This document shows positions 10,451 through 26,847 of a stretch of DNA of 64,000 bases, piece after piece. How positions within the stretch are numbered: the first letter of the stretch is position 1; each line of letters begins with the position of its first letter. The notes below the pieces were generated by a model. That model saw only the letters and a list, made by a program, of their open reading frames with translations. It was not told the DNA's origin and did no database searches. The stretch is from NCBI RefSeq assembly GCF_016616885.1, contig NZ_CP067102.1:3748501-3812500 (forward strand), given 5' to 3'. Made by a program: the position numbers and the translations under genes. The DNA is from Bradyrhizobium diazoefficiens. Lineage in GTDB: Bacteria > Pseudomonadota > Alphaproteobacteria > Rhizobiales > Xanthobacteraceae.

Positions 10451-10464
10451 TTGATTTAGATCAA
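10451..10464 (-). promoter_or_regulatory. FixK/FNR box upstream of cydPABX
   Basis: TTGATTTAGATCAA is a perfect TTGAT-N4-ATCAA site. Placed at the usual -41.5, it predicts a transcription start near 10416 and a leader of about 70 nt to the TTG at 10344. Confidence 0.85.
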
Positions 10465-10679
10465 GACTAGATCGGCGAGGTGTTAACGCGGCTGCCGATG
10501 GACGCCGCTAATCTAAGGCTGCCGGCGGGGCTGGTTTTGCGCGGTAGACTCGGGAAACGTCCGGTCGCCTCCTGGCCGCGGCCGGCCCACGTGCTCATCC
10601 ATTGGTTGAAGCTTAGAAATCCGAGAGACATCTTTGTTAATCTGGATCAAATGGTCCGCATCCGCTCGGATGCTGGGTT
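10465..10679. other. Intergenic stretch with an extra FixK-like site
   Basis: 215 bp between the cyd promoter and the 3' end of the GNAT gene, without a supported gene. It holds the FixK-like site at 10637-10650, which has no evident target gene. A small RNA reading leftwards from that site would fit here, but nothing else supports one. Confidence 0.35.
10637..10650. promoter_or_regulatory. Imperfect FixK-like site without a clear target
   Basis: TTAATCTGGATCAA differs from TTGAT-N4-ATCAA at one position. It lies 30 bp beyond the 3' end of the GNAT gene and about 190 bp upstream of the cyd FixK box. Either a second site for cyd, a small RNA promoter, or chance. Confidence 0.4.
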
Positions 10680-11201
10680 TCATGCGAGCGGCAACGCCAG
10701 ATGGACTGTCTGCGGATCTCGCCTGCTGGTGGGCTTGAAGTCAAACTTTCTGAAGATGTTCAGCATCGCTGCGTTCTCCGGCAGAACCTCCGCCATCAAT
10801 TCCTTCAGTCCGGCTTCCGTTGCGATCGCAACAAGATGGCGCATCAGGATCGAGCCTATGCCGCGGCCCTGCCAGGCATCGACCACCATGAAGGCCATCT
10901 CGGCGTGTCCCGGTTCGAAGACGATGTAGCGGCCGCCACCGACGATGGTTTTTCGGCCTGCGTCCTCGGCGAGCACGACCAGCCCCACATGGTTCTTGAA
11001 ATCGACGTTCATGAAGAAAGCACGCTCCTTGTCGGAGAAGTGGCGCTTCATCACGAAGAAGCGACGCTGCAGCGATTGCGCGCTCGCTTGCTCCAGGGCA
11101 GCGAGCATGGCGGCCTCGTCCTCTGGGCGAAGTGCGCGGATCTCGGCCGTGCTGCCGTCTCGCAACTGTTCGTGGGCGATGTAGCTGGCGAGGTCCGACA
11201 T
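10680..11201 (-). CDS. GNAT-family N-acetyltransferase, 173 aa
   Basis: An acetyl-CoA-dependent acyltransferase of the GNAT fold. The conserved acetyl-CoA binding loop is seen as DAWQGRGIGSILM (about residues 112-124), with flanking beta strands (EMAFMVV before it, ELMAEVLPEN after it). It resembles the GNAT domain that is fused to the acyl-CoA synthetase Pat in protein lysine acetylation, but is free-standing here; the substrate is unknown. The ATG at 11201 is chosen for the preceding AAGGGAG and because upstream residues do not fit the family. It is divergent from the AI-2E transporter gene, with a perfect FixK box between them. Confidence 0.82.
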   Translation of the reverse strand: MSDLASYIAHEQLRDGSTAEIRALRPEDEAAMLAALEQASAQSLQRRFFVMKRHFSDKERAFFMNVDFKNHVGLVVLAEDAGRKTIVGGGRYIVFEPGHAEMAFMVVDAWQGRGIGSILMRHLVAIATEAGLKELMAEVLPENAAMLNIFRKFDFKPTSRRDPQTVHLALPLA

Positions 11202-11277
11202 CTGGGCTCCCTTGCCGCAAGCCGGGTGGCTATTTGAGCGGCACCAGCCGATGAAGCTTCCGGCCGACCGCGGTTGT

Positions 11278-11291
11278 TTGATCTGGATCAA
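11278..11291. promoter_or_regulatory. FixK/FNR box in a divergent promoter region
   Basis: TTGATCTGGATCAA, a perfect palindromic site. It lies 77 bp upstream of the GNAT start (minus strand) and 51 bp upstream of the AI-2E transporter GTG (plus strand). The -41.5 rule gives starts near 11244 (left) or 11325 (right), so either or both genes may be induced at low oxygen. Confidence 0.83.
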
Positions 11292-11341
11292 GACGACGTC
11301 GCAAAGGCTAGAGCTAGGCTCAGCCACAGTCCAGATGGGGC

Positions 11342-12427
11342 GTGGCCTTGAAGACACTCCGTCAGCGTTTGACCGGCGAAGACATGATCCAGCTTGTGAT
11401 CCGGCTCGGATTGCTCGCCTTGTTAGTCGTCTGGACATTCGTCGTGATCCGACCGTTCGTGCCGATCCTGGCCTGGGCGATCGTGCTCGCCGTCGCGTTC
11501 AATCCGGTCTTTAGCTGGCTTGCCAAATTGCTTGGCGGCAGCCCAAAACTCGCGGCGCTCATTCTCACCGTGATCAATCTTGCCATCGTCATCGGACCGG
11601 CAACCTGGCTCGGCCTGAGTGCCGTGGATGGCATCAAGGACATCGCCGGACAGCTCAACGCCGGCGAGCTTGTCGTTCCTTCTCCACCGCAGGCCATCAA
11701 GAGCTGGCCGTTGGTAGGACCGCAGCTCCATGCGTTGTGGGATGAGGCCTCGATCAATATCCGCTCGGTCCTGCGCGAAATCGTGCCCTATCTGAAACCG
11801 CTCGCGACCACCATGCTCGGCTTTGTGGGCGATGCCGGCCTGGGCACGCTCATGTTTCTTCTTTCGGTGGTGGTGGCCGGCTTCATTTTTCCCCACGGGT
11901 CGCAGCTCGTGGCGGCGATTCGGGGATTCCTGGCGCGAATCGTGCCCGAACAGAGTGAGCATTTTCTGAAATTGGCGGGCGCGACGATACGTGCCGTATC
12001 CCAGGGGGTCATCGGCGTTGCGGTCATCCAGGCACTGCTCGCCGGTATCGGATTCAAGCTGGCCGGTATACCCAGCGCAGGCCTGCTGGCTTTCGCGGTC
12101 TTGCTCCTGAGTATCGTGCAAATCGGCGCGACGGTCATTCTGCTTCCGGTGATTGTCTGGATCTGGTTCGACAAGGATATCCCCATCGCGCTCCTGCTCA
12201 GCGTGTTTCTGGGCATCGTCAGCGTGCTCGATAACATATTGAAGCCGTTGGTGATGGGCCGCGGGCTAACGACGCCGACGCTGGTCATTCTGATAGGGGT
12301 GATTGGGGGAACTCTGGCGCATGGGATCGTCGGTCTCTTCGTCGGGCCGATCATTCTCTCGGTCGCCTGGGAATTGGCGGTGGCCTGGATCCGTATCGAT
12401 CGCGCTGATCCGGCAGCGCTGCCGTGA
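11342..12427 (+). CDS. AI-2E/PerM-family transporter
   Basis: A 361-aa inner-membrane protein of the AI-2E transporter (TqsA/PerM/YdiK) family. About eight hydrophobic helices are visible, in two N-terminal pairs (about 17-80), a central soluble part (about 85-150), and a C-terminal bundle with the pattern PLVMGRGLTTPTLVILIGVIGG (about 300-325) typical of the family. The substrate cannot be told: members export autoinducer 2 or exchange sodium and protons. The GTG at 11342 is used; the ATG at 11384 is a plausible alternative. A perfect FixK box lies 51 bp upstream, and the next operon begins 80 bp downstream. Confidence 0.82.
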   Translation: MALKTLRQRLTGEDMIQLVIRLGLLALLVVWTFVVIRPFVPILAWAIVLAVAFNPVFSWLAKLLGGSPKLAALILTVINLAIVIGPATWLGLSAVDGIKDIAGQLNAGELVVPSPPQAIKSWPLVGPQLHALWDEASINIRSVLREIVPYLKPLATTMLGFVGDAGLGTLMFLLSVVVAGFIFPHGSQLVAAIRGFLARIVPEQSEHFLKLAGATIRAVSQGVIGVAVIQALLAGIGFKLAGIPSAGLLAFAVLLLSIVQIGATVILLPVIVWIWFDKDIPIALLLSVFLGIVSVLDNILKPLVMGRGLTTPTLVILIGVIGGTLAHGIVGLFVGPIILSVAWELAVAWIRIDRADPAALP

Positions 12428-12437
12428 GTGCCGAACG

Positions 12438-12451
12438 TTGACCTAAATCAA
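12438..12451 (+). promoter_or_regulatory. FixK/FNR box upstream of DUF3141-pta-ackA-fabI
   Basis: TTGACCTAAATCAA matches TTGAT-N4-ATCAA with one change. At -41.5 it predicts a start near 12486, about 20 bp before the ATG at 12507. Confidence 0.75.
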
Positions 12452-12506
12452 CGTCGCCTGGTCCTGAGGCCACTTGAATTGAGACGCGCGACAGAGAGGT
12501 CTGAAT

Positions 12507-14729
12507 ATGTCGATGGAAACTCCAAACCTGCCAGGCGGACCCCTATCCGGCCTTGTCGCCTCGGGAATCGAATACATGGTCGATGCGGGGCAGCGCAGCG
12601 TGCTGTTTCTGGACATCATGCGCCAACGCGGCGACCAGTACCGGGAGCATGTCGCGCAAACGGCTCCGCACGTCCTGCAATATGCCGCGGAATTGATCAT
12701 CGACGGGCGCAAGTTGGACGAGCCGGTCAACTACGCGCTGGTCCGCATTATTCCGCCCAAGGGCGTCGAGATCGATCTCGAGCGGCGTCCATTCATCGTG
12801 GTCGATCCGCGTGCCGGGCACGGTCCTGGAATTGGCGGGTTCAAGGCAGACAGCGAGATCGGCGTTGCGATGAAGGCTGGGCATCCCTGCTACTTCGTCG
12901 GCTTCCTGCCGGATCCGATGCCGGGACAGACCATCGAGCGCATCGCGCGCGCCGAAGCGCTATTCATCGAGAAGGTCGTTAGCCTCCATCCCCAGGCTGA
13001 CGGCAAGCCGTGCGTGATTGGCAACTGCCAGGCCGGCTGGGCTGTCATGATTCTGGCCTCGCTGCGACCAGAAATGTTCGGACCGTTGATCATCGCCGGC
13101 GCGCCGCTCGCCTATTGGGAGGGCGTCCATGGCAAATATCCAATGCGCTATTCGGGCGGCCTGTTGGGCGGGAGCTGGCTCACCGCGCTGACCAGCGATC
13201 TCGGGGGTGGCAAGTTCGACGGCGCTTGGTTGGTGCAGAACTTCGAGAACCAGAATCCCTCGAACACGCTCTGGACCAAGCAATACAACGTTTATTCCAA
13301 GGTCGACACCGAAGCCGATCGCTATCTTGAGTTCGAGCGCTGGTGGGGCGGACACGTCAACCTGAACGCGGAGGAAATCCAGTTCATCGTCGATGAATTG
13401 TTCGTCGGCAACAACCTCGCCGCCGGAAACATCAAGATGTCCGATGGCGCAATCGTGGATCTGCGCAACATCAGATCGCCGATCGTGGTGTTCTGCTCGG
13501 CGGGCGACAACGTCACGCCGCCGCAGCAGGCGCTCAACTGGATCCTCGATTGCTATGCCGACGTCGACGAGATCAGGGCTTACGGTCAAACCATCGTCTA
13601 TACCGTTCACGAAACCGTCGGTCATCTCGGTATTTTCGTGTCGGGCGGCGTCGCCAAGAAGGAGCACGCCGAGTTCTCCAGCAATATCGATCTGATCGAC
13701 GTGCTTCCGCCGGGGCTCTATGAAGCGACTTTTGAGGCGAGAGGATCGGACACTCTCAATGCCTATCTCGCCGTCGGCCAATGGGTCATGCGCTGCGAGG
13801 CGCGGACGCTCGACGACATCCGCGCCATGGGCGGCAATTCCCCGGAGGACGAGCGGCGATTCGCGGCTGCCAAGCGGGTCTCCGAGCTCAATCTCGCTGC
13901 CTACCAGAAGTTCGTCCAGCCCTGGGTCAAATCCATGGTGACGCCCCAGATGGCGGAGTGGGCGCGCAACATGCACCCGCTGCGGCTGCAATACGAGGCC
14001 TTCAGCAGCCAAAATCCATGGATGTCCGCGGTGAAGTCGGCCGCCGAGAAGGTCGAGGACAACCGCAAGCCGGTCGCGAAGGACAATCCCTTTTTGGCGT
14101 TCCAGGAGCAGATGTCCAAACAGATCGTTCATGCGCTGGATAGCTGGCGGGACTCGCAGGAGAGGCTGAGCGAGGCGATCTTCCTCAACGTATACGGTTC
14201 GCCCACACTTCAAGCTGCGGTCGGGATCGACCCGAAATCCGAGCCGTCGCGCCGGCGCGAAATGCCGGCTGAACACCGCGCGATGCTCGACAAGCGGATT
14301 GCCGAGCTGAAATCGAAGATCGGCGAAGGTGGCCTTCGCGAAGCTGCCATTCGTGCACTGCTTTATGTGGGCTCGGCGCGCGGCATGGTCGATGAGCGGA
14401 GCATCGAGGCGCTTCGCCGACTTCGCCGCGATCAGGCAGGAGCGCGGCTGACGCTGCCCGAATTCAAGATGCTGGTGCGCGAGCAATTCTTCATGCTGGT
14501 GCTCGATCGGGAAGGGGCCGTGGCCGCCATCCCGAAGATCTTGCCCGAAGACATTAACCGGCGCCGCGCGGCAATCGAGGCAGTACGAGAGGTATTGTCC
14601 GCAAGCGAGGACATCACCGGTGAGAGCGCGAACCGAATGAAGCGCGTCGCTGAACTCTTCGGTGTGGATGCGGGAGGGGAGCCGGCTTCGAACGTCGCCC
14701 CTTTCGATCCGAAGGCAAGGGCGTCGTAA
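12507..14729 (+). CDS. DUF3141 protein, PHA-synthase-like alpha/beta hydrolase
   Basis: A 740-aa protein of the DUF3141 family, related to polyhydroxyalkanoate synthases. The N-terminal half has an alpha/beta-hydrolase layout with a cysteine at the nucleophile elbow (IGNCQAGWA, Cys174), like the G-x-C-x-G box of PhaC. An aspartate (Asp334 in FCSAGDNVTPP) and a histidine (His373 in ETVGHLGIF) complete a likely triad. The C-terminal half (about 480-740) is helical, charged and unassigned. ATG at 12507. Pta, AckA and FabI follow within 27, 5 and -4 bp, so the four form an operon behind a FixK box. Whether it polymerises, depolymerises or transfers acyl groups is not known from sequence. Confidence 0.85.
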   Translation: MSMETPNLPGGPLSGLVASGIEYMVDAGQRSVLFLDIMRQRGDQYREHVAQTAPHVLQYAAELIIDGRKLDEPVNYALVRIIPPKGVEIDLERRPFIVVDPRAGHGPGIGGFKADSEIGVAMKAGHPCYFVGFLPDPMPGQTIERIARAEALFIEKVVSLHPQADGKPCVIGNCQAGWAVMILASLRPEMFGPLIIAGAPLAYWEGVHGKYPMRYSGGLLGGSWLTALTSDLGGGKFDGAWLVQNFENQNPSNTLWTKQYNVYSKVDTEADRYLEFERWWGGHVNLNAEEIQFIVDELFVGNNLAAGNIKMSDGAIVDLRNIRSPIVVFCSAGDNVTPPQQALNWILDCYADVDEIRAYGQTIVYTVHETVGHLGIFVSGGVAKKEHAEFSSNIDLIDVLPPGLYEATFEARGSDTLNAYLAVGQWVMRCEARTLDDIRAMGGNSPEDERRFAAAKRVSELNLAAYQKFVQPWVKSMVTPQMAEWARNMHPLRLQYEAFSSQNPWMSAVKSAAEKVEDNRKPVAKDNPFLAFQEQMSKQIVHALDSWRDSQERLSEAIFLNVYGSPTLQAAVGIDPKSEPSRRREMPAEHRAMLDKRIAELKSKIGEGGLREAAIRALLYVGSARGMVDERSIEALRRLRRDQAGARLTLPEFKMLVREQFFMLVLDREGAVAAIPKILPEDINRRRAAIEAVREVLSASEDITGESANRMKRVAELFGVDAGGEPASNVAPFDPKARAS

Positions 14730-14756
14730 CGCGGATTGGCAGGATTGGGAGACACT

Positions 14757-15719
14757 ATGTCGGTTGACACGACGAAGATGCAGTCCGGCACCAAGTACGA
14801 CCGCCTAATCGCGGCGGCCAAGGCCGTGCCGCCAACGCCGACCATCGTGGTGCATCCCTGTGATGAGACCTCGCTCCGTGGCGCTGTCGACAGCGCGAGC
14901 GCTGGTATCATCCGGCCGATCCTGGTCGGGCCCGAAGGGAAGATCAGGGACACGGCGAGCAAGCATGGCCTCGACGTCTCGGGCTACGAGGTTGTCGATG
15001 CGGCACATAGCGATGAGTCGGCCGCCAAAGGCGTCGAACTGATCCATGCGGCCAAAGGCGAAATGCTGATGAAGGGCAGCCTGCATACAGATGAACTGAT
15101 GCGCGCCGTCACCGCAAAGACGGGCGGCCTGCGCAGCGATCGGCGCATCAGCCACGTGTTCGTCATGGACGTGCCGGCGTATGCTGAGACAATCTTCGTC
15201 ACCGACGCGGCCATCAACATTTTTCCGGACCTCGACGCCAAGCGGGACATCATCCAGAACGCAATCGATCTCTACAACCAAGCCGGCTTTGGCAAATCGC
15301 CGCGGGTGGCAATTCTGTCGGCGGTCGAGACGGTCACCTCCAAGATTCCATCGACGATCGAGGCGGCGGCGCTCTGCAAGATGGCCGATCGCGGGCAGAT
15401 CACAGGTGGCGTGCTCGATGGTCCGCTGGCGTTCGACAATGCAATCGACCCCGAGGCCGCGCGGATCAAGGGCATCAAATCCGAAGTCGCCGGTCGTGGG
15501 CAGATCCTGGTCGTACCCGACCTCGAATCCGGCAACATGCTGGCGAAGAATCTCGCTTATTTCGCTAAGGCCGATGGCGCCGGTATCGTGCTCGGCGCCC
15601 GGGTACCGGTCGTGCTCACGTCCCGTGCCGATTCGGCGCGCTCGCGAATGGCGTCTTGCGCAGTGGCCGCGCTCTATGCGCACGCGCGGCAGCAAAAATC
15701 GCCAACGGTCGCCGCGTGA
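14757..15719 (+). CDS. pta: Phosphate acetyl/butyryltransferase
   Basis: A 320-aa PTA_PTB family enzyme that exchanges acyl-CoA and phosphate for acyl-phosphate and CoA. Family patterns include the N-terminal [22 protein letters not shown] segment in two halves, the central SHVFVMDVP and [11 protein letters not shown] (about residues 140-165), and the C-terminal [17 protein letters not shown]. The short length without a DRTGG domain is closer to the short Pta/phosphotransbutyrylase class than to E. coli Pta, so the acyl chain may be acetyl, propionyl or butyryl. The ATG at 14757 follows GGATTGGGAG. The kinase gene starts 5 bp after its stop. Confidence 0.9.
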
Positions 15720-15724
15720 CCGCC

Positions 15725-16939
15725 ATGGACACGATCCTTGTCGTCAACGCGGGCTCCTCCAGCGTCAAGTTCCAGGTGTTCTCTGTCGAGGGCGAGGGCA
15801 CGTTGCGGCGCCAAATCAAGGGGCAGATGGACGGCATCGGCAGCCGCCCGCGCTTGCGCGCGAGCGGCGCGGGTGGAGATTCTTTGGCCGACCGCGCCTA
15901 TCCGATCGAGGCGGTCCCGGACGTTCCGGCTGCGATGCGAGTTGCGGGCGACTGGCTGCGAGACGAACTCCGCATCCAGCCGATCGCCGTCGGCCATCGT
16001 GTCGTGCATGGCGGGCCTGACTATGCACGTCCGGTTCTGATCGACCACGGCGTGGTGGCGCGCCTCGAGCGCTTCGTCAGCCTTGCCCCGCTGCATCAGC
16101 CGCACAATCTGGCGCCGATCCGTTCGATCCTTGCTAATTTCCCTGCGCTGCCGCAGGTCGCATGCTTCGATACCGCGTTTCACCGTACGCACAGTGCGGT
16201 CGCCGATCATTATGCGATCCCGCATCACCTCCACGCCGAGGGCGTGCGGCGCTACGGCTTCCACGGACTATCCTACGAATACATTGCGAAGACCCTGCTG
16301 CAGATCGCGCCCGAGATCGCCAAACGCCGGGTCATCGTCGCCCATCTCGGCAGTGGTGCATCGATGTGCGCGCTGAGGGATGGACAGAGCATCGAGAGCA
16401 CCATGGGTTTCACGGCGCTCGACGGACTGCCGATGGGAACGCGCCCGGGTCAACTCGATCCCGGCGTTGTGCTTTATCTCATCTCCGAGAAGGGAATGTC
16501 GGCGTCGAACGTGCAGAATTTCCTATATCGCGATTGCGGATTGAGGGGGCTCTCGGGCGTCAGCAACGATATGCGCGAGCTGGAAGCCAGCCAAGAGTCC
16601 AAGGCGAAGCTGGCTATCGACTATTTTGTTTATCGGATCGGCCTCAGCTCAGGCATGCTTGCGGCCGCTTTGCAGGGCTTGGATGCCTTCGTGTTCACGG
16701 CCGGCATTGGCGAGAATTCTGCAAACATCCGTGCACGCGTGGCAGAGCAGCTCGGCTGGCTCGGTGTTGCGGTCGATGCAGCCGAGAATGCGCGTCATTC
16801 GCGACTGATATCGCGGCTCAACAGTACCATCCCCGTTTACGTGGTGCCGACCGACGAGGAACTGATGATCGCGCAGCACACGTTGTCGCTGCTGATGAAC
16901 AGCCAATCGCCCAACCCAAGACATGAGAGGGTGTCATGA
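15725..16939 (+). CDS. ackA: Acetate/short-chain acid kinase
   Basis: A 404-aa acetokinase that converts acyl-phosphate and ADP to the acid and ATP. It begins [16 protein letters not shown] (first signature), has GHRVVHGG, the substrate region FDTAFHRT, the [11 protein letters not shown] phosphate loop, and [20 protein letters not shown]. The C-terminal [10 protein letters not shown] (about residues 322-331) is the second signature. Together with Pta it would form ATP by substrate-level phosphorylation. The sequence does not decide between acetate and butyrate. The stop overlaps the fabI start by 4 bp (ATGA), showing translational coupling. Confidence 0.93.
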
Positions 16940-17724
16940 TCCCCGCATTCCCGGATAGCAAAGTCGCCCTGAAGGGCAAGAAAGGCCTCGTCGTCGGCAT
17001 CGCCAACGATCAATCCATCGCCTGGGGCTGCGCACGGGCGTTTCGCGCGCTCGGCGCCGATCTCGCCGTCACCTACCTCAATGAACGCGCCAAGAAGCAT
17101 GTCGAGCCGCTGGCGCAGGCGCTGGAAGCCCCGATCTTCATGCCGCTGGATGTCATGGTCGAAGGCCAGACGGAGCAGGTGTTCGAGCGCATCGCAAATG
17201 AATGGGGCCAGCTCGACTTCCTGCTGCACTCGATCGCCTTCTCGCCGAAGGAGGCATTGCATGGTCGCGTCGTGGATGTGAACCGCGACGGCTTCCTCAA
17301 GACGATGGATGTCTCGTGCTGGTCATTCCTGCGGATGGCCCATCTTGCCGAGCCGCTGATGAAGAACGGCGGCACGATGTTCACGATGACCTATTACGGC
17401 AGCCAGATGGTGGTGGAGAACTACAACATCATGGGTGTGGCGAAGGCGGCGCTCGAAGCGGCCGTTCGATATGCTGCGGCGGAACTGGGGCCGAAGGGCA
17501 TCCGTGTGCACGCGATCTCGCCCGGACCGCTCGCCACACGTGCGGCCTCAGGCATTCCGGAGTTCGACGAACTGATGGACAAGGCCCAGTCGAAGGCACC
17601 GGCGCGCAGCCTCGTCAGCATCGACGACGTCGGCAACGCCACCGCATTCCTGGCGCTCGACGGCGCCAAGCTCATCACCGGCGGCGTTCTTTATGTCGAT
17701 GGCGGCTATCACATCATCGATTGA
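16936..17724 (+). CDS. fabI: FabI-type enoyl-ACP/CoA reductase (NADH)
   Basis: A 262-aa short-chain dehydrogenase of the FabI class. It shows the atypical nucleotide-binding start ([15 protein letters not shown], about residues 16-30) that separates FabI from other SDRs, [11 protein letters not shown], and the active-site Tyr-x6-Lys arrangement ([17 protein letters not shown], about residues 158-174). The C-terminus [14 protein letters not shown] is normal. It is the last gene of the DUF3141-pta-ackA operon rather than of a fatty-acid operon, so it is probably a second, dedicated FabI. In this setting reduction of crotonyl- or another enoyl-thioester with NADH is plausible. Its 3' end faces maoC with a 6-bp gap. 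Confidence 0.9.
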
Positions 17725-17730
17725 ACGCGC

Positions 17731-18189
17731 TCAGCGATAGTGCAGGGCGATCAGCTCGGCGATGCAGGCGGGCTTCTTGCCGCCTTCGATCTCGATCACG
17801 AGATGGTAGTTCACGCGCAGGCCATCCGGCGGCACGTCCTCGGCTTCCGCGACCGTGACGCGGCCGCGGAGCTTGGAGCCCGACGGCACCGGCGCCAGAT
17901 ACCGTATCCGGTCCGCGCCGTAGTTCAGGGTGTTGCGCAGGCCCTTCAAGCTGATCACCGAGCGGATAAACAGCGGCGCAAGCGCCAGCGACAAGAGCCC
18001 GTGGGCGATGGTGGTGCCGCCGGGCAGCTCTTTTTTAGCACGCTCCTGATCGACATGGATCCATTGCTCATCGCAGGTTGCCTCGGCAAACTGGTTGATC
18101 CGATCCTGCGACACCTCGACCCAATCGCTGACGCCGATCTCCGTGCCAATGGCGGATTTGATCTCGTCGAAATCGCTGAATATCCGCAT
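17731..18189 (-). CDS. MaoC-family (R)-enoyl-CoA hydratase
   Basis: A 152-aa hot-dog-fold hydratase. The catalytic Asp-His pattern is visible as QFAEATCDEQWIHVD (about residues 33-47) followed by TIAHGLLSLALAP (about 60-72). Enzymes of this type hydrate crotonyl-CoA to (R)-3-hydroxybutyryl-CoA or run in reverse, connecting beta-oxidation and polyhydroxybutyrate. The gene follows scoB by 10 bp on the minus strand and converges with fabI. It is likely the last gene of scoA-scoB-maoC. Confidence 0.87.
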   Translation of the reverse strand: MRIFSDFDEIKSAIGTEIGVSDWVEVSQDRINQFAEATCDEQWIHVDQERAKKELPGGTTIAHGLLSLALAPLFIRSVISLKGLRNTLNYGADRIRYLAPVPSGSKLRGRVTVAEAEDVPPDGLRVNYHLVIEIEGGKKPACIAELIALHYR

Positions 18190-18199
18190 GGCCGTGACC

Positions 18200-18850
18200 T
18201 CACAGCTTCATTTCTGGAACGCTGTCGGGGACGACAAGCTCGGCCTCGGTCACCGCCAGGACTTCGCCAACGCTGATGCCAGGCGCGGTTTCCAGCAGCG
18301 TCGCCTTCCCGTCCGGGAAGGCGATCACGGCCATGTCCGTCACAACCAGGTTTACCGGCCGCGCCGACGTCAGCGGCAGCGTGCATCTTGCGACGATCTT
18401 CGACTTGCCCTTGGCGGCGTGCTGCATAGCGACGATGACCCGCTTGGCGCCGGTGACCAGATCCATCGCCCCGCCCATGCCCGGCACCATCTTGCCGGGA
18501 ATCATCCAATTGGCGAGATGGCCGTGCGCATCGACCTGGAGACCGCCGAGCACAGTGACATCGACATGGCCGCCGCGGATCAATCCGAACGACATCGCGC
18601 TGTCAAATGTGCAGGCCCCGGGCAGAGCGCTGATCGGCTTGCCTCCGGCGTCAGTCAACGTCGGATGCGCCATGCCCTGCTCAGGGATCGGTCCGGTGCC
18701 GATCAGGCCGTTCTCCGACTGGAAGAACACCTTCAGGTCGGATGGGATGTAATTCGCGACCAGCGTCGGAATGCCGATGCCGAGATTGACGAGGTTGCCG
18801 CTCCTCAACTCCTTGGCGACGCGTCGGGCGATGATGGTCTGTGCATCCAT
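18200..18850 (-). CDS. scoB: 3-oxoacid CoA-transferase subunit B
   Basis: A 216-aa beta subunit of a family I CoA transferase, which moves CoA between succinyl-CoA (or acetyl-CoA) and acetoacetate or another short acid. Family markers are the VNLGIGIPTLVANYI stretch (about residues 19-33), SENGLIGTGP with the catalytic glutamate (about 45-54), and the C-terminal part with VVTDMAVI. The alpha subunit gene lies 4 bp upstream. The pair is probably expressed from the FixK-like promoter at 19575-19588. Confidence 0.92.
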   Translation of the reverse strand: MDAQTIIARRVAKELRSGNLVNLGIGIPTLVANYIPSDLKVFFQSENGLIGTGPIPEQGMAHPTLTDAGGKPISALPGACTFDSAMSFGLIRGGHVDVTVLGGLQVDAHGHLANWMIPGKMVPGMGGAMDLVTGAKRVIVAMQHAAKGKSKIVARCTLPLTSARPVNLVVTDMAVIAFPDGKATLLETAPGISVGEVLAVTEAELVVPDSVPEMKL

Positions 18851-18854
18851 GATC

Positions 18855-19502
18855 TCACCCGTTCGTAATGAGGTAGTCGACGAGCGGCGCCGGCGTCACG
18901 ACATGGTCGGGCGCGATGACGCCCACGGGCACGATGTGCTCTGCCGTCACGATTACGGTGTCGGCCGCCATGGCCATGACCGGATTGAAATTGCGGGACG
19001 TCAGTGCGTAGGCAAGGTTGCCCAGATAGTCGGCGAGAAAGGCATGTACCAGCGCGAACTGAGCCCGCAACGCTGTCTCGAGCAGGAATGATTTGCCGTC
19101 GACTTCGATCTGGCGCTTGCCTTCCGCGACCAGTGTGCCGACGCCCGTTGCTGTCAGAATGCCGCCGAGGCCGCATCCGCCTGCGCGAATTCGCTCGACG
19201 AAAGTTCCTTGCGGAACGAGATCGACGGCGATCTGGCTCGCCAGCATCTGCTGCTGCGCCTTCGGGTTGAGGCCGATATGCGTCGCGGTCAGGCGCGAGA
19301 CCAACGCCGCGTCGAACAATTTGCCGACACCTTTGCCCGGAAGCGCGGCGTCGTTGCAGATCAGCGAAAGGCCGTTCTTTTGCTGCCGGACCACTTCATC
19401 GAGCAGGCGCTCCGGTGTCCCGACCCCCATGAACCCGCCGACCATGACGCTGGCGCCGGGCGGGATCATCGCAACGGCTTCTTCGACGGAAATGGCCTTC
19501 AT
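18855..19502 (-). CDS. scoA: 3-oxoacid CoA-transferase subunit A
   Basis: A 215-aa alpha subunit partner of ScoB. It starts MKAISVEEAVAMIPPGASVMVGGFMGVGTP, cut here to its recognisable halves: the glycine-rich MVGGFMGVGTP (about residues 17-27) and CNDAALPGKGVGKLF, both typical of the family. The ATG at 19502 is chosen for its GGAGT ribosome binding site; an upstream in-frame ATG would lie before the FixK-like site. First gene of scoA-scoB-maoC, reading away from the K+ channel gene. Confidence 0.92.
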   Translation of the reverse strand: MKAISVEEAVAMIPPGASVMVGGFMGVGTPERLLDEVVRQQKNGLSLICNDAALPGKGVGKLFDAALVSRLTATHIGLNPKAQQQMLASQIAVDLVPQGTFVERIRAGGCGLGGILTATGVGTLVAEGKRQIEVDGKSFLLETALRAQFALVHAFLADYLGNLAYALTSRNFNPVMAMAADTVIVTAEHIVPVGVIAPDHVVTPAPLVDYLITNG

Positions 19503-19574
19503 GATTGGGACTCCGGTCAATAGGCGATCGATGGAAGGCATCTTGAAATGTTGGCAAAGCACTGCTGCGCGCCC

Positions 19575-19588
19575 TTGATCTGTGTCAA
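19575..19588. promoter_or_regulatory. FixK/FNR-like box between scoA and the K+ channel gene
   Basis: TTGATCTGTGTCAA has one mismatch to TTGAT-N4-ATCAA. It lies 73 bp upstream of scoA on the minus strand (predicted leader about 38 nt) and 114 bp upstream of the channel start on the plus strand. Control of scoAB-maoC fits best by spacing. Confidence 0.7.
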
Positions 19589-19701
19589 AGCTTCTCATCG
19601 GTCCGACGGCCAACCATCCTACGGGCGTTTCGGTCCACGGCTTGCGAATCCGATGGCGATGGAGAAGCCGAAATGGCGAGCCGGCTGGGGAAAAGAGGAC
19701 G

Positions 19702-20160
19702 ATGGCGCTTCAATTCCTGACCGGAATCATTGTCAGCGTGATCAACATCATTATCCACGCTTTGGCGACTGTCGGCGTCGTCGGCCTCGCCCGTTCAGCG
19801 GGCTTGCAGCAGACATCATGGCCGAGATGGCATTTGATGACCGTGATGGTCGGAACCGCCGCCGCGCTGATGGTCGCACATACGCTGGAGATCTTCGTCT
19901 GGGCGCTCGCCTACGCGGTCGTCGGCGCCGCACCGGAGGGCAGCGATCTTCTCTATTTTGCCTTTGTCAACTACACCACGCTCGGCTACGGCGATATCAC
20001 GCCCGTGCCAGCCTGGCGGCTGACGGGGCCGATGACCGCGATGAACGGCATCCTGATGTTCGGCTGGTCGACTGCGGTCCTGTTCGAAGTCCTGCGCAAG
20101 ACGCTGGAGCACCTGTCCGCGATCGGCGCTCCCGGTTTCAAGCCTGAAGATCGAGACTAG
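19702..20160 (+). CDS. Two-helix potassium channel protein
   Basis: A 152-aa Ion_trans_2-type channel. Helices are predicted at about residues 5-27, 39-62 and 106-130, with a pore loop between the last two that carries the K+ selectivity filter TLGYGD (about residues 93-98) in NYTTLGYGDITP. No cytoplasmic RCK/TrkA domain follows, so it is a minimal channel. ATG at 19702 with AGAGGA before it. It converges with fixK, overlapping it by 23 bp at the 3' ends. Under the FixK-like site at 19575 it may be induced at low oxygen; its role could be membrane-potential or osmotic control. Confidence 0.82.
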   Translation: MALQFLTGIIVSVINIIIHALATVGVVGLARSAGLQQTSWPRWHLMTVMVGTAAALMVAHTLEIFVWALAYAVVGAAPEGSDLLYFAFVNYTTLGYGDITPVPAWRLTGPMTAMNGILMFGWSTAVLFEVLRKTLEHLSAIGAPGFKPEDRD

Positions 20161-20821
20161 CGAGTTGGGGCCGGTCGAGCAGCACGATCTGGCGCTGGGT
20201 GCTGCCGATGAAGCCGAGGACCTTGAGCTCATGCAGCCGCGATAATGCGCGCGATACGGTTTCCAATGTGAGGCCCAGATAGTCGGCGATATCGCGCCGT
20301 GACATCGGCAGCGCCATGATGCCAGCTGCCGTCAAACGCTTGTCCATCTCGAGCAAGAACGCCGCGACCCGCTCCAGCGAGGTCTTGCGGCCGAGCAGAA
20401 GCATGTGATCTTCCGCATGCTGCAGATTGATTGTGGTCATGCTGAGCAGGTTGCGCGCGACCATTGCGTCGCTTTCGGCCGCCATCTCCAGACTTTGACG
20501 CTTGATGAGGCGAACGGTGGTGTCCACGATGGCCTCAGCCGTGAATCGGTGCTCGTTGCCGTTCTCCAGTCCAAAAATGTCGCCGGCGAGGTGAAACGCG
20601 CCGATCTGACGCCGGCCATCCGACAGGAGCTTGTGGCTTCGCACTGCGCCAGATCTGATCTGATAGACGTACTCAGCCGGCTCCTTTTCACCGTAAACCT
20701 CTTTGCCCTTTTTGTAGGCAAATTCGATCAAGCTGACCATCGGATTCGAGATGCTGGTCATTCCGAAATCACGGAGCGAATTGGCGCAAGGCAGCGGATC
20801 GGCCGTGATGCGTACAAACAT
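20138..20821 (-). CDS. fixK: FixK/FNR-type transcription regulator
   Basis: A 227-aa Crp/Fnr-family regulator. An N-terminal cyclic-nucleotide-binding-like barrel (about residues 20-135, with DIFGLENG) is followed by a dimer helix and a C-terminal winged HTH. The recognition helix carries E..SR (LTLETVSRALSRL, about residues 189-201), the arrangement that reads TTGAT half sites. The cysteine cluster for an iron-sulfur centre seen in FNR/FnrN is missing (one cysteine near residue 13), so it belongs with FixK-type proteins controlled at transcription level. ATG at 20821 after GAGGAGA. It is the likely reader of the TTGAT boxes in this window, though other FixK proteins may share them. Confidence 0.88.
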   Translation of the reverse strand: MFVRITADPLPCANSLRDFGMTSISNPMVSLIEFAYKKGKEVYGEKEPAEYVYQIRSGAVRSHKLLSDGRRQIGAFHLAGDIFGLENGNEHRFTAEAIVDTTVRLIKRQSLEMAAESDAMVARNLLSMTTINLQHAEDHMLLLGRKTSLERVAAFLLEMDKRLTAAGIMALPMSRRDIADYLGLTLETVSRALSRLHELKVLGFIGSTQRQIVLLDRPQLASLDLQA

Positions 20822-21071
20822 GGGCCGTCTCCTCAACTCATCGCTGAATTGGTCTCAGGCTGACTGTCTCATCGCAGGGAATGCGCCGCGCCGTCCCACT
20901 CCCGCCGAAGTTGATCTACGATGAACGCAGCATTCCCAACCATTGTCTCTAAGGCCATTGTACTAAAGGACAGGTCTGCATTATTTTGCAATAATTGGAC
21001 ACGTCGGCGTGTTGTTAAGTCATTCTAGCTGTCATTGTTTCGTTTTGTGGTTGTATTGAGATTTTCGAGGG
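20822..21071. promoter_or_regulatory. Divergent promoter region of fixK and the FixJ-like gene
   Basis: 250 bp between divergent regulatory genes. It is unusually AT-rich near 20960-21000 and contains an imperfect dyad around TGCATTATTTTGCAATA (20976-20992). No TTGAT-N4-ATCAA box is seen, so fixK here is not obviously self-controlled; a FixJ-type site is possible but not recognised. Confidence 0.45.
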
Positions 21072-21710
21072 ATGCGATTGCCGGGCCTTGTCCACGTGGT
21101 AGACGACGACGCTTCGTTCCGGACGGCGATCGAGCGTCGTCTGAGGCTCGCCGGCTATGACGTCGCGACCTATGCATCGGCACTGGAGCTGCTGGACCAC
21201 CTGCCGGGCGACGCGCAGCCGGGATGCATCCTGCTCGACGTGCAGATCCCGGGCTTGAGCGGCCCGGAATTGCAGAGCCGCTTGACCGAGCTTGGCTCGA
21301 CTGTGCCGATCGTCTTCCTCACCGGCCACGCCGATACCGCAACGACCGTGCGGGCCATCAAGGCCGGCGCCGAGGACTTCCTGACCAAGCCCGTATCGTC
21401 GGAGCAATTGATCGACGCGATCAAGCGCGCCCTGGCGCGTCAGGAGGCCGCACGTGGACAGCACGCCAAGCTCGATCTGCTCCGCGCCCTTGTCTCATCC
21501 CTGACGCCCCGTGAACGGCAGGTGTTCGACTTGATCGTGCGCGGCAGGATCAACAAGCAGATTGCCTATGAGCTTGGAACGACCGAACGCACCGTGAAGG
21601 CGCACCGCCACCAGGTGATGGAGAAAATGCGAGTTCATTCGCTTGCTGAACTTGTGTCGATCGCGGAGCGGCTTGGACTGCTCGATGCAAACGCTGTTCC
21701 GGGCAACTGA
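21072..21710 (+). CDS. FixJ-family response regulator (receiver + LuxR HTH)
   Basis: A 212-aa two-domain regulator. The receiver (about 5-120) has the acidic pair Asp11/Asp12, phospho-acceptor Asp56 (CILLDVQIPG), switch Thr84 (FLTGH) and Lys106 (FLTKPV). The output is a LuxR/FixJ-type HTH (about 138-200) with LTPRERQVF and the recognition part RTVKAHRHQVMEKM. This is the architecture of FixJ and TodT/StyR-type regulators. No kinase gene is adjacent. It is divergent from fixK, so control of fixK is a natural guess, parallel to FixJ-FixK2 in B. diazoefficiens. Confidence 0.87.
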   Translation: MRLPGLVHVVDDDASFRTAIERRLRLAGYDVATYASALELLDHLPGDAQPGCILLDVQIPGLSGPELQSRLTELGSTVPIVFLTGHADTATTVRAIKAGAEDFLTKPVSSEQLIDAIKRALARQEAARGQHAKLDLLRALVSSLTPRERQVFDLIVRGRINKQIAYELGTTERTVKAHRHQVMEKMRVHSLAELVSIAERLGLLDANAVPGN

Positions 21711-21886
21711 TCGGTTCCCTTCGGCTGCCAGAGCCGTGCAAGCGCGACCCTGCCCAAAGGGACAATATGAAAGTTTGTTGACGGTGTGCTTTATGAGCGC
21801 GCAATTGTTTGTGAGCTTTTCGGCCGAGAGAATCGATCCGCCGTCCGGAACGGTTCCGCGAGCCAGTAATTCTCTATTCATCCCGC

Positions 21887-22282
21887 ATGCCAGTCCGAGG
21901 TCGCTTCTTGCCGACACGCACGTCCGTCTTCGTCGTTGACGATGATTCCTCGATGCGCTCGAGCATCAGGCGGTTGCTGCGCGAGCACGGCTTCAGCGCG
22001 GCGTTGTTCGACTCGACGAAGGCGCTGCTCGATCACGGTGATTTCGACGAGGCCATCTGCATCATCATCGATATCGATCTGAATGGACAATCCGGCATCG
22101 AGCTGCGGCGGCGCCTGGCGGAGGAGGGCGTCACCGCGCCGGTCATCTATATTACCGGCAATGACAGCCGCGCAAACCGCCTGGCAGCGGTCGAGTCGGG
22201 ATGTATTGCCTACCTGACCAAGCCCTTCACGGCGCAGTCATTCATCGAATCGATTGAACGGGCCCGTATGGGATTCGTCTAG
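21887..22282 (+). CDS. Single-domain response regulator, FixJ-like receiver
   Basis: A 131-aa protein made of a receiver domain only. It has Asp18-20 (VFVVDDDSSM), the probable phospho-acceptor Asp62 in IIIDIDLNGQSG, a Thr at YITGND and the Lys in YLTKPF (about residue 113). No output domain is present. In related bacteria such proteins act as phosphate sinks or relay partners (FixL-FixJ/RegSR-type networks). It lies 176 bp after the FixJ-like gene on the same strand and may share its signal. ATG at 21887; ribosome binding site weak. Confidence 0.8.
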   Translation: MPVRGRFLPTRTSVFVVDDDSSMRSSIRRLLREHGFSAALFDSTKALLDHGDFDEAICIIIDIDLNGQSGIELRRRLAEEGVTAPVIYITGNDSRANRLAAVESGCIAYLTKPFTAQSFIESIERARMGFV

Positions 22283-22424
22283 CGCGATCGGTCCATTTGT
22301 TCGTCGATGTATTGCCCGAGCGTCTGGGCCGGTGCGGCCTTGTGGACAGTGGCGAATTGCCCGAGCGGCACTGTGGCTCCATCAGTCTTCGCATCGAGTT
22401 GATTTCCGCAGGGCGGAGACTGGC

Positions 22425-22438
22425 TTGATCCAGATCAA
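22425..22438 (+). promoter_or_regulatory. FixK/FNR box upstream of the SulP gene
   Basis: TTGATCCAGATCAA, a perfect site. At -41.5 it predicts a start near 22473 and a leader of about 38 nt to the ATG at 22511. Confidence 0.85.
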
Positions 22439-22510
22439 CCCCCCCTGGACTCCGAGCGCCATTTATGGGGCTGCTCGCGACACCGAGCGCCAGTAGGAGG
22501 AGGCTGGCAC

Positions 22511-24223
22511 ATGAAGTCACCTTTCCTGCCGCGAACCGGCTGGATTCGATCCTTTCCTCCATTTGGCTGGCTTGCCGAATATCGCAGTTCGTGGCTGCGC
22601 CCTGACGCGATCGCTGGAATTACTCTCGCGGCCTATGCGATACCGGTGTCGCTGGCCTACGCGGGACTCGCCGGCTTGCCGCCCCAGGTCGGCATCTACG
22701 GCTACATGCTCGGCGGTATCGGCTATGCTCTGCTCGGCTCGTCGCGCCAGCTTGCGGTCGGCCCGACGTCGGCGATCTCGCTAATGATTGCCGGCACCGT
22801 AGGCTCGCTCGCCGGAGGAGATGCGGCGCGATATACGCAGATTGCGAGTCTTGCCGCATGTGCTGTGGCACTGCTTTGCCTGATAGCTTGGCTGTTCAAG
22901 CTCAGCACGCTCGTCCGCCTGGTCAGCGACAGCATTCTCGTCGGCTTCAAGGCGGGCGCGGGGCTTACGATCATCATGAGTCAGCTGCCAAGCCTGTTCG
23001 GCGTTGCGGGTGGCGGCCACAATTTCTTCGGCCGCGCGAGCTTGCTTGCCAGTCAGCTTGGCGACGTCAATCTGTTTGTGCTGGCGATCGGGGCCATAGC
23101 GATACTGCTGTTGCTGCTCGGCGAGCGGCTCCTGCCTGGCCGGCCGGTCGGGCTCACGGTGGTCGTGCTATCGATCGTCGTCGCAACCCTCCTCGGTCTT
23201 CCCTCGCTGGGCATACCGGTCACCGGGAAAATCCCGGAAGGGTTGCCGGCATTCGCCGTGCCGACGTTTGGGCTGGTGGAGCCTGAAGAACTGTTTCCCC
23301 TCGCGGCCGGATGTCTGCTGCTGGCCTATATAGAAGGTGTCTCTGCGGCCCGCAGCTTTGCCGCCAAGCACGGATATAGTCTCGACGCGCGGCAGGAATT
23401 TTTGGGGCTGGGGGCTGCGAATCTCGCGGCGGCTTTTTGCCATGGCTACCCCGTCGCCGGCGGTCTGTCGCAATCCGCGGTGAATGATTCGGCGGGAGCA
23501 CGCTCGCCGCTGGCGTTGGTGTTTTGCGCGATCGCCCTTGCGTTGTGCCTGCTCTTCTTCACCAGACTATTGACCAACCTTCCCAAGGCGGTGTTGGCGG
23601 CCATAGTCTTTGCCGCCGTGTACAGGCTGGTCGATGTCCGTGCGCTGCTTCGCATGTGGAAGGTCAGCCAAATCGACTTCTATGCCGCAGCGATCGCGCT
23701 GGTATCGGTGCTGCTGCTGGGAATCCTGCAGGGCGTGTTGCTGGCGGCGCTCGCATCCATCTTCCTGCTGCTGGCGCGCGCCTCGCAGCCCAATGTGGCG
23801 TTCCTCGGTCGGCTTCCTGGAACCGGCCGCTACTCGGACAGCTCCAGGCATGACGGCGTCGAGCCGCTGGTCGGCGTGATTGCGTTCCGTCCCGAAGCCT
23901 CGCTGCTCTACATCAATGCCGAAACCATCCTGGAGACGGTCCTGGACGCGCTCCGGAAATCATCGGACATCAAGCTCGTGGCCTGCGATCTCTCGGCATC
24001 GCCCTATATCGATCTCGCCGGCGCGCGCATGCTGCACGATCTTCATGATGAACTCGCGTCCCATCAGGTGGCGTTCTGCATTGTGGGGGCGCACGCCCAA
24101 GTGCGCGATCTGTTGCGGGCGGAAGGACTGGCGGAGAAGACTGATAGCGGTGAATGGTTCCGGTCGCTCGACAGTGTGCTTGGCGGAATCGAGCAGGTTG
24201 AGCTCAATCGTGATCAAACCTAG
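22511..24223 (+). CDS. SulP-family anion transporter with STAS domain
   Basis: A 570-aa SLC26/SulP transporter. The membrane part (about residues 25-425) has ten or more helices. It begins with the family signature region (ITLAAYAIPVSLAYAGLAGLPPQVGIYGYM, residues 37-66, shown here in part) and includes GPTSAISLM. The STAS domain (about 440-555) is present, with the DLSASPYIDLAGARML segment. Substrates in the family range from sulfate and bicarbonate to dicarboxylates, and cannot be chosen here. ATG at 22511 follows AGGAGGAGG. It stands alone behind a perfect FixK box, so it is probably induced at low oxygen. Confidence 0.9.
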   Translation: MKSPFLPRTGWIRSFPPFGWLAEYRSSWLRPDAIAGITLAAYAIPVSLAYAGLAGLPPQVGIYGYMLGGIGYALLGSSRQLAVGPTSAISLMIAGTVGSLAGGDAARYTQIASLAACAVALLCLIAWLFKLSTLVRLVSDSILVGFKAGAGLTIIMSQLPSLFGVAGGGHNFFGRASLLASQLGDVNLFVLAIGAIAILLLLLGERLLPGRPVGLTVVVLSIVVATLLGLPSLGIPVTGKIPEGLPAFAVPTFGLVEPEELFPLAAGCLLLAYIEGVSAARSFAAKHGYSLDARQEFLGLGAANLAAAFCHGYPVAGGLSQSAVNDSAGARSPLALVFCAIALALCLLFFTRLLTNLPKAVLAAIVFAAVYRLVDVRALLRMWKVSQIDFYAAAIALVSVLLLGILQGVLLAALASIFLLLARASQPNVAFLGRLPGTGRYSDSSRHDGVEPLVGVIAFRPEASLLYINAETILETVLDALRKSSDIKLVACDLSASPYIDLAGARMLHDLHDELASHQVAFCIVGAHAQVRDLLRAEGLAEKTDSGEWFRSLDSVLGGIEQVELNRDQT

Positions 24224-24325
24224 GCCAACTGACAAGCGGGCACCCCGTCAGACGTCTGGGCCTCTTGCATCGCGAGGCGAGCCGGTCGGATCGGTAGGCG
24301 TCCGGTATCGCCAATGAAAACTCCG

Positions 24326-24339
24326 TTGATTTGGATCAA
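24326..24339 (+). promoter_or_regulatory. FixK/FNR box upstream of a small exported protein gene
   Basis: TTGATTTGGATCAA, a perfect site. Predicted start near 24374, about 30 bp before the ATG at 24405. Confidence 0.84.
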
Positions 24340-24404
24340 AGAAGGGTGGAGCGCGGTGCTCCTTGCTTGATAGGCTGGCCTCATCAATGCAAAGGAAAGA
24401 AATC

Positions 24405-24836
24405 ATGGGGATTGCTACACGCTTCGCATTCGCTACCCTGCTCGTCGGCGTCGCCGGCTACAGCGCGCCATCGCGCGCCGAGACCGGTCAGGTTGCCATT
24501 GTCTTCACCAAGGGCGGGTTTATCGTCGGTGTTGGTGGCGGCGAGGGTGTCCTGCTGTACCGAGGCCACAAATATCCGTTCACCGTCTCCGGCATGAGCG
24601 TCGGCTTCACGATCGGCGCGTCGACCACCAAATTTGTCGGCCGCGCCCTCAATCTGAGGGGCCCGCAGTCCATCGAAGGATCCTATGCGGCGGGCGGAGC
24701 AGGGGGCGCCGTTGCCGCGGGCGCCGGAGCCGTTCAGCTACAGAACGGCAATGGCGTGATCCTGCAACTCAGCGGTCCGAAAATCGGCGCAGAAGTGTCC
24801 GCTGCCGTCGGCGGGGTCACGATCCGCTTAAAATAG
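24405..24836 (+). CDS. Exported glycine-rich protein, SYLF-like, 143 aa
   Basis: A secreted or periplasmic protein: residues 1-26 form a signal peptide ending near APSRAE. The mature part is rich in glycine and beta-prone, with the pattern FTKGGFIVGVGGGEGVLLYRG (positions about 34-54) that recalls the SYLF/Ysc84 lipid-binding module (K.GF.VGG..G.GVL). It is short for that family, so the relation is tentative. A paralog lies at 29419-29886 with the same order of motifs. The ATG at 24405 is preceded by AAGGAAAG. A perfect FixK box lies 66 bp upstream. Confidence 0.74.
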   Translation: MGIATRFAFATLLVGVAGYSAPSRAETGQVAIVFTKGGFIVGVGGGEGVLLYRGHKYPFTVSGMSVGFTIGASTTKFVGRALNLRGPQSIEGSYAAGGAGGAVAAGAGAVQLQNGNGVILQLSGPKIGAEVSAAVGGVTIRLK

Positions 24837-24897
24837 AATTGAGGTGATCGGGCCGTGCTATGAGTGCGGCCCCCGATCGATGCTCTGTCCTGATTTT

Positions 24898-25698: not shown

Positions 25699-25742
25699 GC
25701 TCATCCCTTCGCCGCGTCAGGCCCAATGTGGCCAGACGGCGC

Positions 25743-26195: not shown

Positions 26196-26263
26196 GGCTG
26201 TCCGCTCCTGCTGTTTCGATTCAGCGTGCTGCCGCAAGGGTAGGTAGGCCCGCCCCAATTCCG

Positions 26264-26277
26264 TTGATCCAGATCAA
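26264..26277 (-). promoter_or_regulatory. FixK/FNR box upstream of the 150-aa gene and ppk2
   Basis: TTGATCCAGATCAA, a perfect site, the same 14 bp as in front of the SulP gene. On the minus strand it predicts a start near 26229, about 34 bp before the ATG at 26195. Confidence 0.82.
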
Positions 26278-26334
26278 GCAATTCCGCCACCTGGTACGCA
26301 CTGTTGTTCGAGGGTTTGAACGACGAAGTCCGGC

Positions 26335-26762: not shown

Positions 26763-26777
26763 AACGCTCCGGATTTC

Positions 26778-26791
26778 TTGATCTCTGTCAA
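26778..26791 (+). promoter_or_regulatory. FixK/FNR-like box upstream of the DUF3300 operon
   Basis: TTGATCTCTGTCAA, one mismatch. Predicted start near 26826, about 22 bp before the ATG at 26848. Confidence 0.7.
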
Positions 26792-26847
26792 CGAAGACCG
26801 GTCAACCGGCGTTGATGCTTGCTGCGATAGGTTCGATGGAGGACATG

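Follow-up and report, generated by a model that had tools for sequence, protein, structure and literature searches.

Why should a protein resembling polyhydroxyalkanoate (PHA) synthases be encoded with a phosphotransacylase, an acetate-family kinase and a FabI-type reductase, opposite a CoA-transferase and a MaoC-type hydratase, in a region rich in boxes of the type recognised by the low-oxygen regulator FixK? The question is raised by a 64-kb stretch of Bradyrhizobium diazoefficiens DNA (contig NZ_CP067102.1, positions 3,748,501 to 3,812,500; hereafter the window), from a genome of one contig and 8.09 Mb with one full-length DUF3141 gene, two AckA genes and three FabI-type reductases. An earlier note on this DNA had proposed a hypoxic route from polyhydroxybutyrate (PHB) to butyrate and ATP, encoded by seven genes in two facing operons. 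All seven are indeed open, with the classes it had given according to Pfam and NCBIfam scans of the window genes, and form the convergent operons DUF3141-pta-ackA-fabI (forward strand) and maoC-scoB-scoA (reverse strand; Table 1). The module is real and strongly conserved, and the gene cluster has in part been published; the present analysis contributes its arrangement as two operons of low-oxygen type, together with the evidence from FabI, the kinase and co-occurrence. As to its function, the reading we favour, tentatively and at somewhat less than an even chance, is that of a PHB-linked low-oxygen module which would dismutate PHB to acetate and butyrate with formation of ATP.

Gene content in relatives was compared by tblastn with the window proteins, a search that very distant homologues could escape. 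Among the best 80 of 348 relatives, mostly Bradyrhizobium (the named loci), the four-gene operon was contiguous in 71, ScoB was present in 73 and stood on the strand opposite FabI in 73/73, and window-type MaoC was detected in 65. In 22 distant Pseudomonadota loci the gene order was shuffled, with Pta in 12, AckA in 12, FabI in 13 and ScoAB in 3; in three of the 22, FabI, DUF3141, Pta, AckA, ScoA and ScoB all lay on one strand. Preliminary gene calls in distant loci included antisense frames, and the statements on fusion and order rest on other data. Moreover, annotated four-gene operons were observed in Sinorhizobium meliloti ml28, Pararhizobium sp. A13, Ensifer canadensis and Rhodobacter sp. 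CZR27, the last two of which also retain the DUF3300-DUF2950 pair of the window. Taken together, these data support the two operons as one shared, conserved module laid out across both strands.

DUF3141 was also found in reduced company. Azospirillum brasilense Sp 7 carries DUF3141, the transferase and the kinase, with no FabI in the examined stretch; Sulfitobacter faviae has DUF3141 and FabI only; and the plasmid-borne DUF3141 of Azospirillum sp. B510, Rhizobium etli p42d, Methylocystis rosea and Acidiphilium cryptum occurs without the module. In five loci of one family, DUF3141 lies in another common neighbourhood without pta, ackA or PRK07533-type FabI matches; the gene has at least one setting other than the pta-ackA-fabI module.

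The motif TTGAN6TCAA occurs ten times in the window against 0.69 expected from shuffling, with all ten copies within 10451-30311, and the neighbourhood that holds them can be read as a low-oxygen island. Ahead of DUF3141, the box was kept in all 85 loci with at least 65% DUF3141 identity (82/82 distinct), out of 107 examined, of which the other 22 fell below this limit; the box before ScoA was kept in 69/69 testable loci (67/67 distinct), five loci being too short and 33 lacking a ScoA match of 65%. The distinct counts allow for three genomes entered twice with identical rows, and the background rate of the box was 417/7337 tiles. Each operon is preceded by a conserved TTGAN6TCAA at promoter distance, as is used to recognise sites of the FixK regulon. 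The boxes behind the earlier claim of FixK control are therefore conserved, and the control itself stands as a site prediction; the TTGATCTGTGTCAA box could serve the divergent ion-channel gene. Three of nine plasmid loci had the box (NGR234, Rhodobacter sp. CZR27 and Ensifer canadensis) and six did not, two S. meliloti strains among them. The box as a universal feature of the module was rejected, given its absence from the distant loci and from six of nine plasmid loci.

A link with PHB is suggested, to begin with, by DUF3141 itself. Its Cys174 was conserved in all 108 sequences, and Asp334 and His373 in 107 each, the remaining rows being gaps. The genome also encodes a 390-aa PhaC/depolymerase-like protein, which matches DUF3141 and PHB-depolymerase models alike and whose Cys-Asp-His is in register with this triad (hhalign probability 98.35, E 1.1e-14). 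Against the class I PhaC of the genome the match was weak (hhalign probability 51.5, residues 225-343), and DUF3141 fails the curated PhaC models, only TIGR01836 being listed (23.1 bits, cut-off 365.3). A sequence search against solved structures gave chance matches only, and an AlphaFold model built on 32 sequences of at least 69% identity to the first was not used (mean predicted local distance difference test score, pLDDT, 52.7). The protein may be a synthase or a thiolytic depolymerase, and its sequence fits either. The triad and a PHA link have been stated before (PMC11878206; PMC8050969; PMC8601165), in passages of which one says depolymerase and the others synthase-like; unlike the present module, these passages give no pathway with Pta, kinase and FabI.

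Furthermore, we surveyed 398 Pseudomonadota genomes, in which class I PhaC was present in 188, with presence lists compiled by hand. Full-length DUF3141 was detected in 27 genomes (two with stops or a split frame), and all 27 had class I PhaC. FabI of the PRK07533 clade was present in 39 genomes, 37 of them with PhaC; this count comprises 38 at 355 bits or more and a further one, from a module locus, at 338 bits, and leaves out three genomes just over the family cut-off, whose FabIs carry a basic residue at position 204 and fall outside the clade (core-type). With these three restored, the count was 37/42 (p = 1e-8). Outside Alphaproteobacteria, where the background of PhaC is about one in five, DUF3141 occurred with PhaC in 10/10 genomes (p = 4e-7) and FabI in 10/12 (p = 1.8e-5), or 10/14 (p = 1.7e-4) with the dropped genomes. 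Genomes are not independent; counted by genus, 28/29 hold, and 28/32 with the dropped genomes. In addition, 20 further PRK07533 loci without adjoining DUF3141 were inspected, and in five of them a PhaC (33-40% identity) lay in the same cluster; one of these reached 530.7 bits with the class I model, below the cut-off of 622.65, and may by analogy recall the Burkholderia 'group D' PhaC (PMC8231600).

Published expression data point in the same direction. In a phaR mutant of B. diazoefficiens at 0.5% O2, blr3456, from operon blr3456-blr3459, showed a 7.2-fold rise in RNA and one of 7.2 log2 in protein; it has predicted PhaR motifs, with its promoter outside the set used for electrophoretic mobility shift assays (PMC10888616). 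Since fixK2 rose threefold in the same mutant (PMC10888616), the effect of phaR on blr3456 may be indirect. From gene order, blr3456-blr3459 is almost certainly the orthologue of the window operon, and this order is seen in two loci whose strains bear the name B. diazoefficiens. The PhaC-like triad, the co-occurrence and adjacency with PhaC, and the co-regulation with PHB genes in B. diazoefficiens all support the PHB link of the earlier note.

The FabI of the module passes the PRK07533 subfamily model NF005717 (443.8 bits, cut-off 337), and the host genome has two further, E. coli-like FabIs, as expected if, as had been noted, it is a non-core enzyme. A tree was built from 64 sequences: the window FabI, 20 other clade members, 13 distant sequences, 7 of the 81 Bradyrhizobium-type rows, 22 core sequences and E. 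coli FabI. In it the clade gathered 41/41 of its members and 0/23 core sequences, with a local support of 0.953; adding four more core FabIs left it intact (0.954). The position of E. coli R204 is Asp in the window FabI and in 80/81 Bradyrhizobium-type rows (one gap, three repeats), acidic in 11/13 distant and 19/20 other clade FabIs, and basic in 21/22 core FabIs, 20 of which were chosen among those most like the PRK07533 family, as well as in the four added ones. At 201 and 205 the core FabIs of this set seldom carry a basic residue, and the contrast resides in position 204 together with the segment's net charge. We take K201, R204 and K205 of E. coli FabI to be contacts with acyl carrier protein (ACP), an assignment that our literature searches did not confirm. 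An acidic residue at such a contact, where core FabIs are basic, suggests that the module FabI probably acts on enoyl-CoA rather than on an ACP substrate, which partly supports the reduction of crotonyl-CoA proposed earlier: the charge inversion is there, and the ACP contact is our assumption. Membership in the trans-2-enoyl-CoA reductase (TER) family was rejected (PF12241, 20.3 bits, cut-off 22.1).

The same data bear on the view that this FabI serves membrane-lipid synthesis under stress as an alternative enoyl-ACP reductase, with the Ptb-like enzyme supplying acyl-phosphates. Family models do name it FabI, clade members retain the Tyr/Phe-Tyr-Lys positions, and in 4/25 clade genomes it was the sole FabI found, in a search confined to this reductase class; a second, more E. 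coli-like FabI was present in the other 21/25 genomes tested, and neither the acidic residue nor the PhaC association is what this view leads one to expect. We consider it very unlikely.

The transferase scored 304.4 bits with the Ptb model TIGR02706, below its cut-off of 410.5, and 64.9 bits with the pta equivalog TIGR00651 (cut-off 311.2), and it passes the PRK11890 subfamily, named phosphate acetyltransferase (514.7 bits, cut-off 413). Against solved structures it reached 222.7 bits with Ptb and 63.8 bits with Pta, the best match being 7vg9, a phosphate butyryltransferase. The transferase is thus much nearer to phosphotransbutyrylase than to phosphotransacetylase, as had been claimed, although it stays below the Ptb cut-off and the assignment is supported in part. 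In the kinase, Asn7, Arg91, His123, Asp148, His180, Arg241 and Glu384 (numbering of Methanosarcina thermophila) were kept in 82/82 sequences. The position of Pro232 is Ala in 82/82 Bradyrhizobium-type rows (three repeats), 10/12 distant and 5/6 other sequences, and Pro in the other AckA of the genome. The enzyme is acetate-type by family, with a clade-specific change in its predicted pocket. Together, the acidic FabI clade, the Ptb-near transferase and this pocket change would speak for chemistry at the level of C4 units and CoA.

An improbable variant keeps this chemistry with another chain, C5-C6 or branched acyl-CoA instead of C4. Rhizobia are, to our knowledge, known mainly for PHB, which argues against it. 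In its favour, the Ala at the Pro232 position would widen the kinase pocket on paper. Likewise in its favour, 3-hydroxyhexanoate copolymers are reported from strains that carry group D PhaC (PMC8231600).

Window MaoC passes its family model (68.3 bits, cut-off 27), has its D-x4-H motif in 69/70 rows and finds its nearest structure in Rv0130. In 20 loci, 10 of 21 Pta proteins carried an N-terminal MaoC-like stretch, as judged by eye; the Pfam MaoC model passes in 6/10 of these fusions, and the 4/4 run through NCBIfam matched a bifunctional hydratase/transferase family along their length. Such fusions tie a hotdog-like domain to the transferase; they do not show that this domain is a hydratase in every case. 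As proof of a hydratase step the fused domain is weakened, its motif being broken, by eye, in six of the ten.

In the dismutation scheme that we favour, DUF3141 would act on PHB or on a C4-CoA unit through its Cys-Asp-His triad, most likely by thiolysis to (R)-3-hydroxybutyryl-CoA, part of which MaoC would dehydrate to crotonyl-CoA. FabI would reduce this with NADH to butyryl-CoA, as a one-way electron sink, and the remaining hydroxybutyryl units would be oxidised to acetyl-CoA by a dehydrogenase and a thiolase encoded elsewhere. Acetyl- and/or butyryl-CoA would then pass, by way of the Ptb-like transferase and the kinase, through the acyl-phosphate to the acid plus ATP, and ScoAB would swap CoA between butyryl-CoA and acetate or acetoacetate. 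We infer the direction, substrates, products and ATP of this pathway, the net being two hydroxybutyrate units to two acetate and one butyrate, with about 3 ATP, redox-neutral and with CoA balanced. In contrast to the earlier scheme, acetate is here the main ATP-yielding product and ScoAB would pass the CoA of butyryl-CoA to acetate, so that dismutation would survive an acetate-specific kinase. We know of no settled answer to why rhizobia hoard PHB in low-oxygen nodules; if true, a module through which PHB yields ATP and an electron sink in the absence of oxygen would explain the use of nodule PHB, and DUF3141 and the additional FabI of many PHB makers would gain a function. A bolder proposition, which we regard as rather doubtful, is that of an unrecognised and widespread intracellular PHB fermentation, nodules included, in which the FabI clade, recruited away from fatty-acid synthesis, is an NADH crotonyl-CoA reductase and DUF3141 a thiolytic, Cys-type PHB-mobilising enzyme.

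The direction of the scheme can be weighed from redox potentials, which lie near -10 mV for crotonyl-CoA and near -320 mV for NADH. Reduction by NADH is effectively one-way, and FabI would therefore point from PHB outwards. This tells against assimilation, in which the kinase and transferase would activate acetate or other short acids for PHA synthesis and FabI would be pointless inwards; boxes of the low-oxygen type also suggest a shortage of energy or redox capacity, and we hold assimilation to be quite unlikely. Nevertheless, kinase and transferase reactions are reversible, as is well established. Assimilation is, moreover, the published suggestion for the phaC-pta-ack-fabI clusters of Burkholderia, which are read as a means of acetate use for PHA synthesis (PMC8231600).

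Besides that published reading, several observations weigh against dismutation. The kinase passes the AckA model TIGR00016 (356.2 bits, cut-off 293.4) and fails that of butyrate kinase (47.1 bits, cut-off 289.1), and so does not bear out the butyrate-forming kinase of the earlier note. Val93 of M. thermophila AckA, which we take to limit chain length, was kept in 82/82 Bradyrhizobium-type kinases, and Asn211, presumably an active-site residue, was Ser in 80/82 of them and Asn in 10/12 distant ones. The MaoC step fared no better: by tblastn, window-type MaoC was not found in 22/22 distant loci nor in 15/80 named loci, eight of which keep ScoAB and four of which end less than 4 kb beyond DUF3141, and the D-x-N-P-x-H motif was whole, by eye, in 4/10 fusions, two of them from one genus. 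The strict FixK box was absent within 400 bp of DUF3141 in all 22 distant loci and in two S. meliloti strains, and 7/27 DUF3141 genomes were without PRK07533-clade FabI. Within Alphaproteobacteria, the PhaC association was not significant (p = 0.36 and 0.12), a test that is uninformative because PhaC is nearly universal in the class. Finally, searches of open-licence literature, without supplements, returned no butyrate route or dismutation for this module, and those on FixK2 with ackA/pta, on the locus tags and on DUF3141 no description of the proposed function.

The kinase scores and the retained Val93 favour acetate overflow, in which Pta-AckA would make acetate and ATP, or an acetyl-phosphate signal, at low oxygen, and DUF3141 and FabI would have separate lipid or PHB roles. 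Indeed, blr3457 (pta) and blr3458 (ackA) of B. diazoefficiens have been read in terms of acetyl-phosphate and ATP (PMC10888616), in passages on blr3456-blr3459 that do not discuss DUF3141 and FabI. Overflow leaves unexplained the recurrence of FabI and a Ptb-like transferase with PhaC or DUF3141 in varied orders and genera, as well as the clade-specific changes in kinase and FabI, and we judge it unlikely. As for the dismutation reading, its butyrate route from PHB appears plausible on sequence grounds.

Around the module (Table 1), window positions 7395-30311 also hold cytochrome bd subunit II, a FixK-like regulator, response regulators, a SulP-type (sulfate-permease-type) transporter, PPK2, DUF3300 and DUF2950. 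A relaxase/DUF3363-type protein at 2607-4982, close to the low-oxygen island, is a possible trace of a mobile element. At 30980-44800, a direct tandem duplication of about 6.9 kb (spacing 6875) comprises an AcrB-type pump, an HlyD-type adaptor, a LysR regulator and a fourth gene; 31000-37700 and its copy show zero mismatches, which reflects either a very recent event or a matter of assembly. Within the module, the likely fabI start overlaps ackA by 4 bp.

Table 1. Features of the two-operon module and its surroundings, in window positions.
Feature	Position	Strand	Remarks
FixK/FNR-type box TTGACCTAAATCAA	12438..12451	+	centre 62.5 bp before DUF3141
DUF3141 (PF11339), PhaC-like alpha/beta-hydrolase, Cys174-Asp334-His373	12507..14729	+	Pfam 975.6 bits
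Ptb-like phosphotransacylase, PRK11890/PRK08190 families	14757..15719	+	family scans; likely start ATG 14757
Acetate/propionate-family kinase, Ala at M. thermophila Pro232 position	15725..16939	+	likely start ATG 15725
FabI, PRK07533 clade; likely NADH-dependent enoyl-CoA reductase (substrate inferred)	16936..17724	+	likely start 16936
MaoC-type (R)-hydratase, D-x4-H motif	17731..18189	-	Pfam MaoC
CoA-transferase subunit B, ScoB/PcaJ family	18200..18850	-	Pfam/NCBIfam; with subunit A passes TIGR02428/TIGR02429: 310.8 (cut-off 243.55) and 197.1 (cut-off 128.5) bits
CoA-transferase subunit A, ScoA/AtoD-like	18855..19502	-	likely start ATG 19502
FixK/FNR-type box TTGATCTGTGTCAA	19575..19588	.	between ScoA and divergent ion-channel gene; centre 79.5 bp before ScoA
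FixK-like CRP/FNR regulator near module	20138..20836	-	NF050806 212.9 bits, below 300-bit cut-off

One published relative is the open reading frame (ORF)-pta-ackA-fabI operon of S. meliloti (Summers et al., 1999, as cited in PMC8231600). It has the same four genes in the same order as the window, annotated in ml28, with identities of 70% for DUF3141, 72% for Pta and 77-78% for FabI; in ml46, ackA is unannotated and was found by tblastn in two pieces. The S. meliloti operon differs in its PhoB/phosphate control, as cited in PMC8231600, and in having no strict FixK box, and no MaoC, ScoB or ScoA match was found near it in the 12-14 kb examined per locus. Two S. meliloti loci also carry short DUF3141 fragments near the full gene, resembling decayed copies. 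The group D phaC clusters of Burkholderia sensu lato (phaC, phaJ-pta fusion, ackA, fabI) resemble the window in placing the transferase, kinase and FabI next to an enzyme of polymer metabolism, with PhaJ fused to Pta, and differ in that a divergent PhaC, at 2-24% to the S. meliloti ORF, replaces DUF3141 (PMC8231600).

In published passages, bll3462, a CoA-transferase subunit A, is among the genes followed in nodules, and pta and ackA of NGR234 are up 118-228-fold in bacteroids. The NGR234 plasmid carries a DUF3141-pta-ackA-fabI operon behind a FixK box, and from plasmid and numbering the induced genes are presumably those of this module.

In clostridia, the Ptb-Buk route leads from crotonyl-CoA to butyryl-CoA, butyryl-phosphate and butyrate plus ATP. 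The proposed module would follow the same outline, with a FabI-type enzyme instead of Bcd-Etf, an AckA-type instead of a Buk-type kinase, and entry from PHB. Anaerobes such as Ilyobacter, in turn, dismutate 3-hydroxybutyrate or crotonate to acetate and butyrate, which is the same net reaction as that proposed here for the module of B. diazoefficiens.

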